Shown here: positions 9,488-25,089 of the stretch, piece by piece | Numbering within the stretch: the first letter of the stretch is position 1 | Layout of the letters: every line of letters begins with the position of its first letter | IMG/VR virus record: IMGVR_UViG_3300008267_000414 | Location: 1-25,089 of that record | DNA: 25,089 nucleotides | From: a virus | Strand: one strand, 5' to 3' | Position numbers and translations under genes: made by a program | The notes under the pieces: generated by a model | Database searches by the model: none | Told to the model about the DNA's origin: nothing | What the model saw: the letters and a program-made list of their open reading frames with translations, nothing else

Positions 9488-9636
9488 TGGCTAAGCCTGG
9501 TCTTTACGCCAACATCCACGCCAAACGTCTTCGCATCAAGAATGGTTCTGGTGAGAAGATGAGAAAGGCTGGATCGGCTGGTGCTCCTACGGCAGCACAG
9601 TTCAAGCAGTCTGCAAAGACTGCAAAGAAGAAGTAA
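9487..9636 (+). CDS. Small basic YANIHAKR-type protein (49 aa)
   Basis: ATG overlaps the previous stop (TGATG); TAA lies at 9634-9636. The sequence GLYANIHAKRLRIKNGSGEK, then MRKAGSAGAPTAAQFKQSAK, is a pattern I know as a recurrent uncharacterised small phage protein, often near structural genes in cyanophages and other marine phages. It is strongly basic with a Lys-rich end, which suits nucleic-acid binding. Function is unknown. Very little room for error exists in the gene call, because the motif is distinctive. Confidence 0.78.
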   Translation: MAKPGLYANIHAKRLRIKNGSGEKMRKAGSAGAPTAAQFKQSAKTAKKK

Positions 9637-9638
9637 CC

Positions 9639-9663
9639 TTTAATAAGAAACTTTCTTATTAAA
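9639..9663 (+). other. AT-rich hairpin after the small-gene cluster
   Basis: Perfect 11-base inverted repeat TTTAATAAGAA / TTCTTATTAAA with a three-base loop, two bases after the stop of the preceding gene. It has no GC-rich stem and no T run, so termination would be weak. It could be an RNase III-type processing site or a 3' mRNA stabiliser. Confidence 0.6.
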
Positions 9664-9672
9664 AGTTCCTAT

Positions 9673-9724
9673 TAACAGAGCCTAAGCCCCTGTTATGTCC
9701 TGATGAGGCATATCACGCTTAGGC
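9673..9724 (+). ncRNA. Predicted RNA pseudoknot in capsid leader
   Basis: TAACAG (9673-9678) pairs with CTGTTA (9690-9695), enclosing an 11-base loop. Eight bases of that loop, GCCTAAGC (9680-9687), are perfectly complementary to GCTTAGGC (9717-9724) downstream, giving an H-type pseudoknot. The linker 9696-9716 contains a minor TGAT/ATCA stem. The same CCTAAGC and GCTTAGG strings recur at 9885-9898, so the loop has an alternative partner. This is pairing read by eye, not a computed fold. Confidence 0.5.
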
Positions 9725-9728
9725 CATC

Positions 9729-9776
9729 TGCATAGACCTGGTGGCAACATCTTGGGTTCGATTCCCTTGCTATGCG
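9729..9776 (+). ncRNA. tRNA-like acceptor/T-arm element
   Basis: TGCATAG (9729-9735) pairs with CTATGCG (9770-9776), seven pairs with one G-U, like an acceptor stem. Directly inside its 3' strand is GGGTTCGATTCCC (9754-9766), a T-arm-type stem and TTCGATT loop, extended by CAA/TTG (9745-9747 / 9767-9769). A GG-containing segment sits where a D loop would be, but the anticodon arm is missing, so this is not a normal tRNA. Possible readings are a tRNA-like processing signal, a degenerate tRNA, or a tRNA 3'-end fragment used as an attachment site. Confidence 0.45.
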
Positions 9777-9778
9777 TT

Positions 9779-9813
9779 GACTATCGGCCTCCTACGGGAG
9801 ACAACCTTTAGTC
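9779..9813 (+). other. UNCG-capped stem in capsid leader
   Basis: Outer stem GACTA (9779-9783) / TAGTC (9809-9813) encloses CTCC-TACG-GGAG (9789-9800). The inner loop is C(UACG)G, a UNCG tetraloop, which is exceptionally stable in RNA. It follows the tRNA-like element by two bases. Confidence 0.5.
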
Positions 9814-9882
9814 ATGACAGTCGGAGAGACGACAATTTTTCAAAAAACACGAATGACAATGAATCCTGAAAATTCGTTGTAA
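9814..9882 (+). CDS. Possible 22-codon upstream ORF
   Basis: ATG 9814 to TAA 9880-9882 would encode a 22-residue peptide beginning MTVGETTIFQKTR. A GGGAG lies 13 bases upstream, rather far for a ribosome binding site. It ends 47 bases before the capsid start. A leader peptide is possible, but a frame this short often occurs by chance. Confidence 0.2.
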   Translation: MTVGETTIFQKTRMTMNPENSL

Positions 9883-9884
9883 TT

Positions 9885-9898
9885 CCTAAGCGCTTAGG
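9885..9898 (+). repeat. 14-base palindrome upstream of capsid gene
   Basis: CCTAAGCGCTTAGG is a perfect palindrome ending 31 bases before the capsid start codon. Both halves repeat strings used in the pseudoknot at 9680-9724. It may act as an RNA switch partner, a protein-binding operator, or a short stem in the capsid mRNA leader. GGGAGAC (9897-9903) overlaps its end. Confidence 0.6.
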
Positions 9899-9929
9899 GA
9901 GACGTTAACAAAACTCTCTCTTTACTATT

Positions 9930-10949
9930 GTGGCTAACACTACTGTAACTTCCATTGGTCGCGTAAATAATACGAGCGCGACTCCTCTTGCTCTTGGTAC
10001 TGCTTACGATACTAAGTATGCAACCTATCTGAAGCTGTTCTCTGGCGAGATGTTCAAGGCGTATGAAAGCGCCACTATCGCCAAGGGCACTGTGCAGAGC
10101 CGTACCCTGAAGAACGGTAAGGCTATGCAGTTCATCTTCACTGGCCGTATGGAGGCCGCTTACCACGAGCCCGGAACTCCGATCCTGGGTAGTGGTGATC
10201 CTCCGGTGGCTGAGAAGACCATCGTCTGTGACGACCTTCTCGTCAGCTCTGCCTTTGTGTATGACCTGGACGAGACCCTGGCTCACTACAGCCTCCGTTC
10301 GGAGATCGCTGCCAAGATCGGTCACGCTCTGGCCGAAGCTTACGACAAGAAGATCTTCCGTCAGATCGCTAAGGCTGCTCGTGAAGCTCACCCCATCACT
10401 GCTGCTCCTGGCCCTGAGCCCGGCGGTAGCATCATCCAACTGGGTGCTAACAAAGAGTTTGACGCTCAAGCCATTGTCGATGCCTTCTTTGAAGCTGCCT
10501 CGATCATGGATGAGAAGAACCTGCCCAAGCAGGGTCGTATGGCTGTGCTGTCTCCCCGTCAGTACTACGCACTCATCAGCCAAGTTGACAGCAACATCCT
10601 GAACCGTGACTACGGCAACACTCAGGGTAGCCTCAACTCTGGTGATGGCCTGTATGAGATCGCTGGTATTCCTATCAAGCGTTCCAACAACCTGCCCTTC
10701 CTGGCTGGCAACATTGCCGCTGTGAACGGTGAGAACAACAACTACTCTGGTGACTTCAGCACCCACTGTGGTCTGATCTATCACAAAGATGCTGCTGGCG
10801 TTGTGGAGGCCATTGGTCCTCAAGTGCAGACCACCGGCTCTGACGTTCGTACCATGTACCAAGGCGACATCATCGTGGGTCGTCTGGCTATGGGCTGTGG
10901 CACCCTGAACCCCGCCTGTGCTATTGAGCTGCAGTCGGCACGTTCCTGA
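9930..10949 (+). CDS. Major capsid protein (T7 gp10-like)
   Basis: 339 residues forming the icosahedral head shell. The N-terminal pattern ALGTAYDTKYATYLKLFSGE, then FEMFKAYE-type and GRMEAAYHEPGTPILG segments, belongs to the T7 gp10 / cyanopodovirus capsid family, as does NRDYGNTQGSLNSGDGLYEIAGIPI in the C-terminal half. The only usable in-frame start is GTG 9930: an in-frame TAA lies at 9906-9908 and no ATG occurs between. There is no purine-rich site at normal distance; the nearest GGGAG is about 27 bases away. Codons are biased to C- and G-ending forms (CTG, GGT/GGC, AAG, AAC) more than in neighbouring genes, as expected for the most highly expressed gene. Confidence 0.95.
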   Translation: MANTTVTSIGRVNNTSATPLALGTAYDTKYATYLKLFSGEMFKAYESATIAKGTVQSRTLKNGKAMQFIFTGRMEAAYHEPGTPILGSGDPPVAEKTIVCDDLLVSSAFVYDLDETLAHYSLRSEIAAKIGHALAEAYDKKIFRQIAKAAREAHPITAAPGPEPGGSIIQLGANKEFDAQAIVDAFFEAASIMDEKNLPKQGRMAVLSPRQYYALISQVDSNILNRDYGNTQGSLNSGDGLYEIAGIPIKRSNNLPFLAGNIAAVNGENNNYSGDFSTHCGLIYHKDAAGVVEAIGPQVQTTGSDVRTMYQGDIIVGRLAMGCGTLNPACAIELQSARS

Positions 10950-22823: not shown

Positions 22824-25089
22824 TGGGGCTGCTATTCGGATTTATCGTCAAACGGATGACGCTAGCCTGGCTGCTCAGTTCTATCCAGGTTCTGCTATCC
22901 GTTCGTCTGACCTGAACGATAACTTCACACAGAACTTATACGTCACGCAAGAATCGTCAAACAATGCAGCAACAGCCACTAGCACGGCTAACACTGCACT
23001 GACGAACTCCAACACTGCTATTGGTACAGCTAACACCGCTCTTAGCACGGCTAATACAGCCTCCAGTAACGCTTCTGCAGCCGTATCAACGGCTAACACT
23101 GCTAGCACCAACGCTAGTGCTGCTGTGTCTACGGCTAATACGGCCAGCACTAACGCTACTACTGCTGTCAACACAGCCAATGCAGCTACTGCAACGGCCA
23201 ACAGCGCAGCGTCTGATGCCGCTACAGCACTTAGTACAGCCAACGCCGCTACAAGCACGGCAAACGCTGCATCCACTGCTGCAACTAACGCTGTAAACAC
23301 TGCTAACTCCGCTACGTCTGCAGCTAGTTCTGCAGTGTCTACAGCTAATACAGCTTCTACCAATGCCTCTAATGCTGTAACAACGGCTAATACTGCCTCT
23401 ACTAATGCTACAACAGCAGTTAACACGGCTAACGCTGCAACCGTTACTGCTAACGCTGCTGCTGCTGCTGTGGCTAATGCTGTGCTTTATACAACCGTAG
23501 CTAACGTTGCAGCAATCCCCGCTACACCTGCTAATAACACTGCTGTTGAAGTTACCAATTCTACTGGTATTGAAAGCTTCACTCCACTTAGTGGTCTACC
23601 AGTAGGTTTTGTTGGTAGTTCTGGTCTTAGTGTTCGTATTATCTACCAAACTGCTGGTACTACCTGGACCTGGATTCAATACTTCCCGAATGATCCTGAA
23701 GCACGTTACCTGAAACTTGTAGGTGGTACTGTCACTGGTAACCTTGCAGTGAGTGGAACGCTCACAAAGAGTGGTAATAATGTTGTTACTGTAGGCGATA
23801 CCGGTACTGTCACCTCAACAATGATTGCCAATCAGACCATCACCACCACAGGTGTGGTCAGTGCTGCTGCTGGTGCTGCAGCAACTCCAAGCATTGCGTT
23901 CACCGGTGACACCAACACCGGCATCTACTCCCCCGGTGCAGACCAAGTAGCCATCTCGACTAATGGTGCGGGGAGGTTGTTTGTTGATAGTAGTGGGAAT
24001 GTTGGATTGGCAACAAGTTCGCCAATCAGTGTTGGTGTTGCAGGAATGCCCGCCGTAACACTTGCCTCTGCAACTTCAGGCAGATCTGGAGCTCTGTACT
24101 GGGCGGATACTGGACTAAACAATAAAGCATCAAGTTATTGGTTTGGGTCAGTTTTTAACTTCGGAACTGAGACTAATCATCCCATTGTTTTTACGCAGAA
24201 CGCATCCGAGAAAATGCGTCTTACTTCAACTGGCCTAGGTCTGGGGACTAGCAGCCCTGGCTGGCCTCTTTCCGTTTATGGATCATCCAACCCTGGTATT
24301 GGTTTACGGACCAGTGGGGGGACTTCCGATGATTGGGCCATCAGGGTCAATGATACAAATAACCGCTTTTATTTGTTTAATAACACTAGCGGATACGGAG
24401 AGGTTGTAAGTATTCTTCGAGACGGGAAAGTAGGGATTGGCGATAATGCGCCTAGCCATAAGTTAGTTGTACGCCAAAACAATTCTGGTGGCGTAGCTGC
24501 TATTCATTTGCCTGAAGACGAGTCAACAATTCTTGGCTCAACAGCAAACACAAACATCAAGATGGGCGGGAACATGACTGTTTCTGCCGGTGGAGTTCTT
24601 GGTTTTAATACAAACGGCTCCGAACGCGCCCGCATCGACAGCTCCGGCAGGTTGTTAGTTGGCACGTCTACGAGCACTGCCGTTGCAGGAGCTGCTGCAC
24701 TTTCTCAAATTGAAACGGGGGCAAACATTGGCCTTTCAATCCTGCGGCGTGGTGACGTTCCAATTGTTGCTTTTGGCAGAACTGGAGGTTCCGGCGTAAC
24801 TGTTGTCAATAACGGAGATGAACTTGGCCGCATTTCTTTTGCGGCTGCAGATGGAACTGACATTGAATCAGTCGGCGCACAGATCTCGGCAACTATAGAT
24901 GGAACACCTGGGTCTAATGACGTCCCAACAAGATTAGTGTTCTCCACTACCGCCGACGGGGCGAGCAGCCCGACGGAGCGGGCGCGAATTACGAGTTCAG
25001 GCAAAACGGTTATTAACTCTACTGACCCCGTCCTTAGTGCAACCTTTTCTGTGCTTTCCCAGACAGGCGTAAATACGTGTGCGCTCAGG
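22783..25089 (+). CDS. Tail fibre protein, main part (runs off window end)
   Basis: Frame 1 is open from 22771 to the last base with no ATG before 23821, so it must be reached by frameshift or belongs to a broken gene. Residues in order: the rest of the attachment domain (QFYPGSAIRSSDLNDNFTQN), an Ala/Thr/Asn-rich heptad stalk (22972-23484), a beta-rich link (VANVAAIPATPANNTAVEV to WTWIQYFPNDPEARYLK), a GGTVTGNLAVSGTL strand unit, then a series of modules with E-R-x-R-I-x-S-S-G and GTSSP-like signatures. The last third uses more GGG, AGG, TTG and GCG codons than the first part, which suggests exchange of receptor-binding modules. The C-terminal tip is not in the window. Confidence 0.85.
22972..23484 (+). 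repeat. Alanine-rich heptad repeat stalk in fibre gene
   Basis: About 24 consecutive seven-codon units of the type STANTAS / TNASAAV, with Ala or Val at the core positions and Asn/Thr/Ser outside. At DNA level the string ACGGCTAA(C/T)AC is repeated with small changes. The protein should form a trimeric coiled stalk. The DNA repeats make the region prone to length change by recombination. Confidence 0.85.
23962..25062 (+). repeat. Repeated fibre modules
   Basis: Protein-level repeats spaced irregularly: GAGRLFVDSSGNVGLATSSP (near 23968), SEKMRLTSTGLGLGTSSPG (near 24208), VSILRDGKVGIGDNAPSHK (near 24409), SERARIDSSGRLLVGTSTST (near 24622) and TERARITSSGKTVINSTDPV (near 24976). Each looks like a beta-hairpin followed by a GxGTSSP-type turn, a design common in phage receptor-binding fibres. 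Confidence 0.75.

Follow-up and report, generated by a model that had tools for sequence, protein, structure and literature searches.

The window analysed here, that is, the whole stretch of DNA, is a virus record of 25,089 bases. It contains a gene for a T7-like major capsid protein of 339 amino acids (9930-10949, plus strand, GTG start), and this gene is 85-95% identical to its counterparts in the Synechococcus podoviruses S-SRP01, DSL-LC07, S-CBP3, S-CBP4, and S-CBP1 and 78% identical to that of NATL1A-7. It is preceded by a non-coding leader of 293 nt (9637-9929), in which a pseudoknot, a tRNA-like element, a covarying double hairpin, and a palindrome follow one another from 5' to 3'; all leader features described below are on the plus strand, except the palindrome, to which no strand is assigned. 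The leader folds 4.8 standard deviations below dinucleotide shuffles and compensatory changes were found in relatives, which bears out an earlier reading of the letters of the window (the sequence-only reading) that the leader is selected for structure. That reading covered 9673-9898 and did not remark on the tRNA-like element (9730-9775) and the double hairpin (9777-9834), which lie inside this segment. Its statement that the leader matches no named RNA family also held: an Rfam 15 scan of the window, including the GOLLD, ROOL, manA, wcaG, glutamine-II, and ToxI models, gave no match on any leader module at gathering scores, a scan of 9560-9990 gave only sub-threshold matches far below gathering scores, scans of relatives placed no family on the pseudoknot, the mini tRNA-like element, the double hairpin, or the palindrome, and no description of these leader elements was found in the open-licence literature. 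From the comparison of related sequences, the leader appears to be a chain of independent modules rather than one switch.

An AT-rich, terminator-like hairpin (TTTAATAAG..CTTATTAAA, 9639-9663) lies where the upstream gene ends, outside the conserved core of the leader; it is also found upstream of the leader in the relatives L071, L073, and L076, and in a shorter form in S-CBP1. In several cyanopodoviruses, a glutamine-II riboswitch (RF01704) and, after it, a small gene for a YRGVxY peptide lie just upstream of the capsid leader (L006:1127-1191 in S-CBP4, L008:70-126 in NATL1A-7, L132:2283-2335, L135, and L140), and this riboswitch is absent from the window. Elsewhere in the window (22963-23461), a repeat with a period of 42 nt codes for a segment rich in Ala, Thr, and Asn within a gene that is likely to specify a tail fibre.

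The pseudoknot and its genomic settings

The pseudoknot RNA spans 9672-9728 and is supported by covariation and by an independent covariance model. The octamer GCCTAAGC (9680-9687) is the exact reverse complement of 9717-9724 and is located in the loop of an AACAG/CTGTT hairpin (S1, 9674-9678 with 9690-9694), so that an H-type pseudoknot is possible. Its second helix, S2, pairs 9681-9687 with 9717-9723 and is extended by G9680-C9724; a hairpin, S3, is embedded between the strands (9695-9699 with 9707-9711), and the 3' end is an invariant CCAUC (9724-9728). The eight-base complementarity had been pointed out by the sequence-only reading, which named compensating base changes as the check, and such changes were found: double changes occurred in all seven S2 pairs among 57 distinct relatives. 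In the same 57 sequences, 98.9% of the cells of S1, S2, and S3 were paired, and 106 cells carried double changes, compared with 29 ± 4 after shuffling and 2-12 in slid controls. The degenerate scan pattern used to collect the relatives was taken from the hairpin region and left the S2 strands and the 5' strand of S1 free, and therefore this support was not built in, while the variation of S3 was partly limited by the pattern.

With this pattern, the pseudoknot was found in at least 119 viral stretches of IMG/VR, from podoviruses, myoviruses, and one siphovirus, all infecting cyanobacteria. BLAST searches with the pseudoknot of the window and with related copies led to T4-like cyanophages (S-CREM1, S-SZBM1, S-SRM01, S-RIM8, and S-RIM32) and to the siphovirus S-CBS2, and whole-genome searches gave about one copy per phage genome. 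Furthermore, a covariance model, R1 (A4), that was built from T4-like cyanophage-type rows only, with no window-type rows, matched 9672-9728 of the window with 75.1 bits (E=1.9e-16) and found every other member tested, including the diverged S-CBS2 copy at 1e-8; the best E-value in a further 589 kb of T-arm-rich viral DNA was 0.26. Two exact patterns had zero matches in 84,980 bacterial and archaeal genomes, which may nevertheless hold diverged host copies. The window copy combines S2 complementarity, S3, and the 3' CCAUC with a tRNA-like element that starts one nucleotide after CCAUC, which places it in what we call the cyanophage tRNA-leader pseudoknot family. By these searches, the family appears to occur in viruses only, is common to T7-like, T4-like, and siphovirus-type cyanophages, and has no model in Rfam 15. 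A hammerhead ribozyme, considered because of CTGATGAG, was rejected: relatives show CTTATGAG or CTTGAG, which breaks the CUGANGA core, the GAAA partner strand is lacking, and there was no Rfam match.

Among the matches listed, a same-strand tRNA followed within 400 nt in 95 of 118 unique contexts, and in 64 of these 95 it began 0-8 nt after CCAUC; an antisense tRNA followed the pseudoknot in none of the 118. The pseudoknot precedes an abiF RNA in L226 and L099, and in L283, L258, and L322 it precedes a coding gene without a tRNA. A TATAxA box was located at most 16 nt upstream in 61 of the 118 contexts listed, and other contexts directly follow the 3' end of a tRNA; no TATAxA box precedes the window copy. 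These boxes are suggestive of late promoters and, with the preceding tRNA 3' ends, hint at the pseudoknot as the possible 5' end of many of these RNAs, an inferred position since the start site is not placeable to the base. Another podovirus lineage, clearly distinct, also has the pseudoknot before its capsid genes (L092, L096, and L099; L436, L433, and L439), and therefore the cassette seems to move between phages.

An abiF RNA (RF03085) was found in 9 of the 17 pseudoknot loci scanned, sometimes directly after the pseudoknot. No Abi_2 gene was found in nine records, nearly all of which carry an orphan abiF RNA and one of which is a mycobacteriophage. Such orphan RNAs (L226:863-899, L227:1501-1537, L231:1201-1237, L235, L256, L264, L286, and L307) are located in the tRNA arrays of cyanophages and of mycobacteriophage Redno2, and it is possible that they act as anti-defence decoys.

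The tRNA-like element, double hairpin, and palindrome

One nucleotide downstream of the pseudoknot is a mini tRNA-like structure of 46 nt without an anticodon arm (9730-9775). It consists of an acceptor stem (GCATAG 9730-9735 with CTATGC 9770-9775) in register with a CUGGUG string (9738-9743) and a T-arm, GGG[TTCGATT]CCC, with the loop UUCGAUU (9754-9766). The same architecture is found before the capsid genes of very different T7-like lineages, including Syn5; the region 100-220 nt before cyanopodovirus capsid genes, in which the window copy also falls, commonly holds a full tRNA, the mini form, a T-arm form, or a replacing GGCACC hairpin. Of 23 distinct capsid-leader copies with CUGGUG, 21 had an uninterrupted acceptor stem of 5 bp or more in the expected register, compared with 8.4% when the 3' strands were swapped among copies. 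This count was constrained to the register, because an unconstrained search was too noisy to be evidence. About ten unrelated acceptor stems occur, among them GCATAG, AAGTAA, AAGTGA, AACTGA, GGAATG, GGTAG, ACGGCTA, and GCGGCC, and each is matched by its 3' strand.

In the window itself, ARAGORN found neither a tRNA nor a tmRNA and the tRNA model RF00005 had no match; the T-stem is weak, with three G-C pairs followed by U-U mismatches, and the element alone folds no better than shuffles (z -0.44). The relatives L010, L020, and L008 do match a tRNA by RF00005 or ARAGORN. At the same place in the leader, a tRNA-Gly is annotated in NATL1A-7, ARAGORN calls a Trp tRNA in L010 and an odd Cys tRNA in L020, and P-SSP7 and S-CBP3 have a T-arm with a small second hairpin. 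When 197 capsid loci were considered, three had too little upstream sequence and 194 were scored; the hairpin GGCACCTCAGAGTCGGACC replaces the tRNA-like element in 81 of the 194, and the T-arm total of 85 is slightly high, as a few (for example L047 and L059) are chance matches in the double hairpin. In most close relatives (L003-L088) the replacement is GGAGCAGGGCACCTCAGAGTCGGACCCTGCTC, with a conserved loop and a covarying stem, located, for example in L006, about 160-190 nt upstream of the capsid start. Cyanomyoviruses and cyanopodoviruses also share unusual tRNA-like genes (L020:2283-2355, L256, L257, and L229) in which the anticodon arm is very short, with GACAA or GACAT as its loop; ARAGORN calls some of them tRNA-Cys(aca).

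The double hairpin, or module B (9777-9834), is presumed to be the 5' end of the processed capsid mRNA and is kept in all close relatives. It comprises an irregular GACT/AGTC hairpin with a UACG tetraloop (9779-9813) and a second hairpin, GTCG-GAGAGA-CGAC (9820-9833), whose GAGAGA loop is constant while its stem varies (GTCG/CGAC, GTCTG/CAGAC, and GTGG/CCAC). In its helices P1-P3, 97% of cells are paired, with 41 double-change cells compared with 13 ± 3 after shuffling.

The last module is a loopless, perfect palindrome of 14 nt, CCTAAGCGCTTAGG, at 9885-9898, 31 nt before the GTG at 9930, as had been read earlier. In 97% of 143 distinct cyanopodovirus leaders, and in 5.6% of shuffled leaders, a perfect loopless palindrome measuring 10 nt or more has its centre 25-60 nt, in most cases 35-46 nt, upstream of the capsid start; for palindromes of 14 nt or longer, these values were 65% and 0.4%, with 1.4% in the neighbouring zone. 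About 20 different cores were found (AAGCGCTT, AAGATCTT, GAACGTTC, AAAGCTTT, AGGATCCT, AACCGGTT, CAGGCCTG, TTCATGAA, and more), and because the leaders are related, this diversity tells more than the 97%. The perfect central pairing of each match is by construction, as the test sought loopless palindromes. A hairpin with a free loop needs no self-complementary centre, and this suggests an intermolecular RNA duplex or a role at the DNA level. The half-site is partly conserved, with A at offset 3 in 24 of 30. A repeated phage promoter was rejected as an explanation, since the palindrome is present in a single copy in the genomes of three complete relatives. The right arm of the palindrome can also form helix Y, in which AGGGAGA (9896-9902) pairs with TCTCTCT (9915-9921; span 9896-9921), so that the left arm and this strand, just upstream of the start codon, compete for the right arm. 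Helix Y gives the minimum free energy fold of the window segment, and over 21 core families the mean energy of this duplex was -6.6 kcal/mol, compared with -4.7 kcal/mol with swapped partners (p=0.003); several lineages (P-SSP7, Syn5, and L358) have a weak helix Y or none. In the relatives compared, the palindrome appears as a separate element of the capsid leader, conserved in position and nearly free in sequence.

The sequence-only reading had proposed that the strands of the pseudoknot and the palindrome exchange partners and so gate the capsid start, as a 7-mer of the pseudoknot recurs in the palindrome. The recurrence is true of this genome, in which the 7-mers are identical, but it is not conserved in relatives, where the strings vary independently and without mutual complementarity, the very outcome that the sequence-only reading had named as refuting its proposal. 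The longest string shared by the two elements reaches 7 nt in the window-type genome alone; it measures 6 nt in L010 and L043 and 3 nt in L020, L025, L090, L091, L433, L436, and L439. For instance, L020, L025, L090, and L091 have the pseudoknot strands GCCAGCC/GGCTGGT beside the palindrome TCTCTAAGCGCTTAGAGA, and L433 and L436 retain CCTAAGC with another palindrome. In addition, the pseudoknot is present in 5 of 84 close capsid leaders (that of L043 was read by eye and then confirmed by model R1 and the shared-string comparison), the palindrome is kept in essentially all, and about 94% of the close relatives that keep it are without the pseudoknot. An exchange of partners is therefore scarcely credible, and by this comparison the common 7-mer is coincidental and peculiar to this genome. 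There may be a different kind of switch, in which the right arm of the palindrome pairs with either the left arm or the strand before the start codon.

Proposed processing of the leader and alternative explanations

An acceptor stem with a T-arm is the minimal substrate of RNase P. The explanation that we prefer, and to which we give about an even chance, is that the leader is modular and that its tRNA-like element is an RNase P/RNase Z site, at which the upstream genes are split from the capsid mRNA and the pseudoknot is freed. The host RNase P and RNase Z would recognise the acceptor stem and T-arm and cut the long late transcript, after which the capsid mRNA would begin with the module B hairpin (about 9776). 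The pseudoknot would then either come free as a small, structured RNA (about 57 nt) or stay on as a structured terminus. Real tRNAs follow the pseudoknot in the same arrangement in T4-like cyanophages, so that cutting at these would release it likewise. The covariation of pseudoknot, acceptor stems, and module B, full tRNAs in relatives, and the adjacency of pseudoknot and tRNA count for this explanation; the weak T-stem of the window, the unexceptional folding of its tRNA-like element, and the GGCACCTCAGAGTCGGACC hairpin, in which an RNase P substrate is not evident, count against it, and as some pseudoknots precede protein genes without a tRNA, release by RNase P cannot be general. The freed or terminal pseudoknot might possibly protect RNA ends or act in trans as a decoy. 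If instead the tRNA-like piece were a decayed tRNA or an attP core and not functional as RNA, the full tRNAs at the same place in relatives would be expected, and a T-arm with an acceptor stem is the usual att core; about ten covarying acceptor-stem sequences at a constant position before the capsid gene make this improbable.

For the pseudoknot itself, a phage decoy or antitoxin mimic against a host RNase toxin, co-expressed with the tRNAs, is a rather doubtful alternative to which the virus-only distribution at about one copy per genome and the nearby orphan abiF RNAs in records without Abi_2 lend some weight. ToxI-like type III antitoxins likewise form H-type pseudoknots, and type III antitoxins come as tandem repeats; the cyanophage pseudoknot is a single unit, no host toxin locus with the pseudoknot RNA was found by the exact patterns in the cellular genomes searched, and the invariant CCAUC beside a tRNA suggests a processing context. 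The abiF RNA is a proven RNA antitoxin that neutralises AbiF (PMC12373285), and phage escape by a pseudo-ToxI that neutralises ToxN has been documented (PMC5449768). It is unlikely that the pseudoknot is instead a stability element at the 5' end of late transcripts, blocking 5'-end-dependent decay by RNase E or RNase J: the TATAxA boxes or preceding tRNA 3' ends and its occurrence at the head of protein mRNAs would fit, but the window lacks the box and the cut would follow the pseudoknot. Near the start codon, the palindrome and helix Y could together switch the translation or dimerisation of the capsid mRNA, with the right arm pairing with the left arm, either its own or that of a second mRNA, or with the pre-start strand. 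The many loopless cores at a fixed place and the strength of helix Y speak for such a switch, which we regard as a tentative possibility; helix Y is weak or missing in several lineages, and a role in DNA, as a site for a dyad-binding protein or a cruciform, is equally compatible with the findings, among them a partly conserved half-site. Together with the preferred processing at the tRNA-like element, we can tentatively imagine a capsid mRNA that pairs with its own second copy, or a DNA dyad recognised by its shape, linked to a competing start-codon hairpin and combined with a virus-only pseudoknot and a tRNA mimic cut by RNase P/Z.

Such processing could let abundant ocean and freshwater phages separate the capsid mRNA from upstream genes, and the palindrome is a strongly constrained signal before the most expressed phage gene.

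Comparison with known systems

The pseudoknot RNA is linked to phage tRNA arrays and to orphan antitoxin RNAs, a setting known from other RNAs. GOLLD and ROOL are structured non-coding RNAs of phages and prophages that are often located near tRNA islands (PMC12286853). They share the phage and tRNA setting with the pseudoknot; they are, however, ornate and several hundred nucleotides long, compared with 57 nt here. The abiF RNA is also short, phage-borne, and found in the same tRNA arrays, but it is a simple hairpin with its own covariance model, RF03085, which the pseudoknot does not match. ToxI has the H-type pseudoknot and the possible decoy logic in common with the cyanophage RNA, which differs in its single copy, its embedded hairpin, its tRNA context, and in that no toxin gene was seen.

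The TLS-PK motifs of Weinberg et al. (2017) are reportedly a class that combines a tRNA-like structure and a pseudoknot. Their pseudoknot is reportedly directly 5' of the tRNA-like structure, as it is here, and no such Rfam 15 model matched; an overlap with this class would lower the novelty of the pair of pseudoknot and tRNA-like element, not that of the palindrome. The tRNA-like domain of tmRNA has an acceptor stem and T-arm without a normal anticodon arm, as does the element in the window, which differs in being without a tag reading frame and in that ARAGORN calls no tmRNA there. In the dimer initiation site of HIV-1, self-complementarity is kept while the sequence changes. The palindrome shows the same sequence-free self-complementarity, but in a DNA phage for which no RNA dimer is known and without a surrounding hairpin loop. 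Finally, the phi10 promoter and leader of T7, which precede gene 10, have GGGAGA followed by a 5' hairpin ahead of the capsid gene, as is seen here; phi10 is a repeated phage promoter, whereas the palindrome is sequence-free and occurs once per genome.
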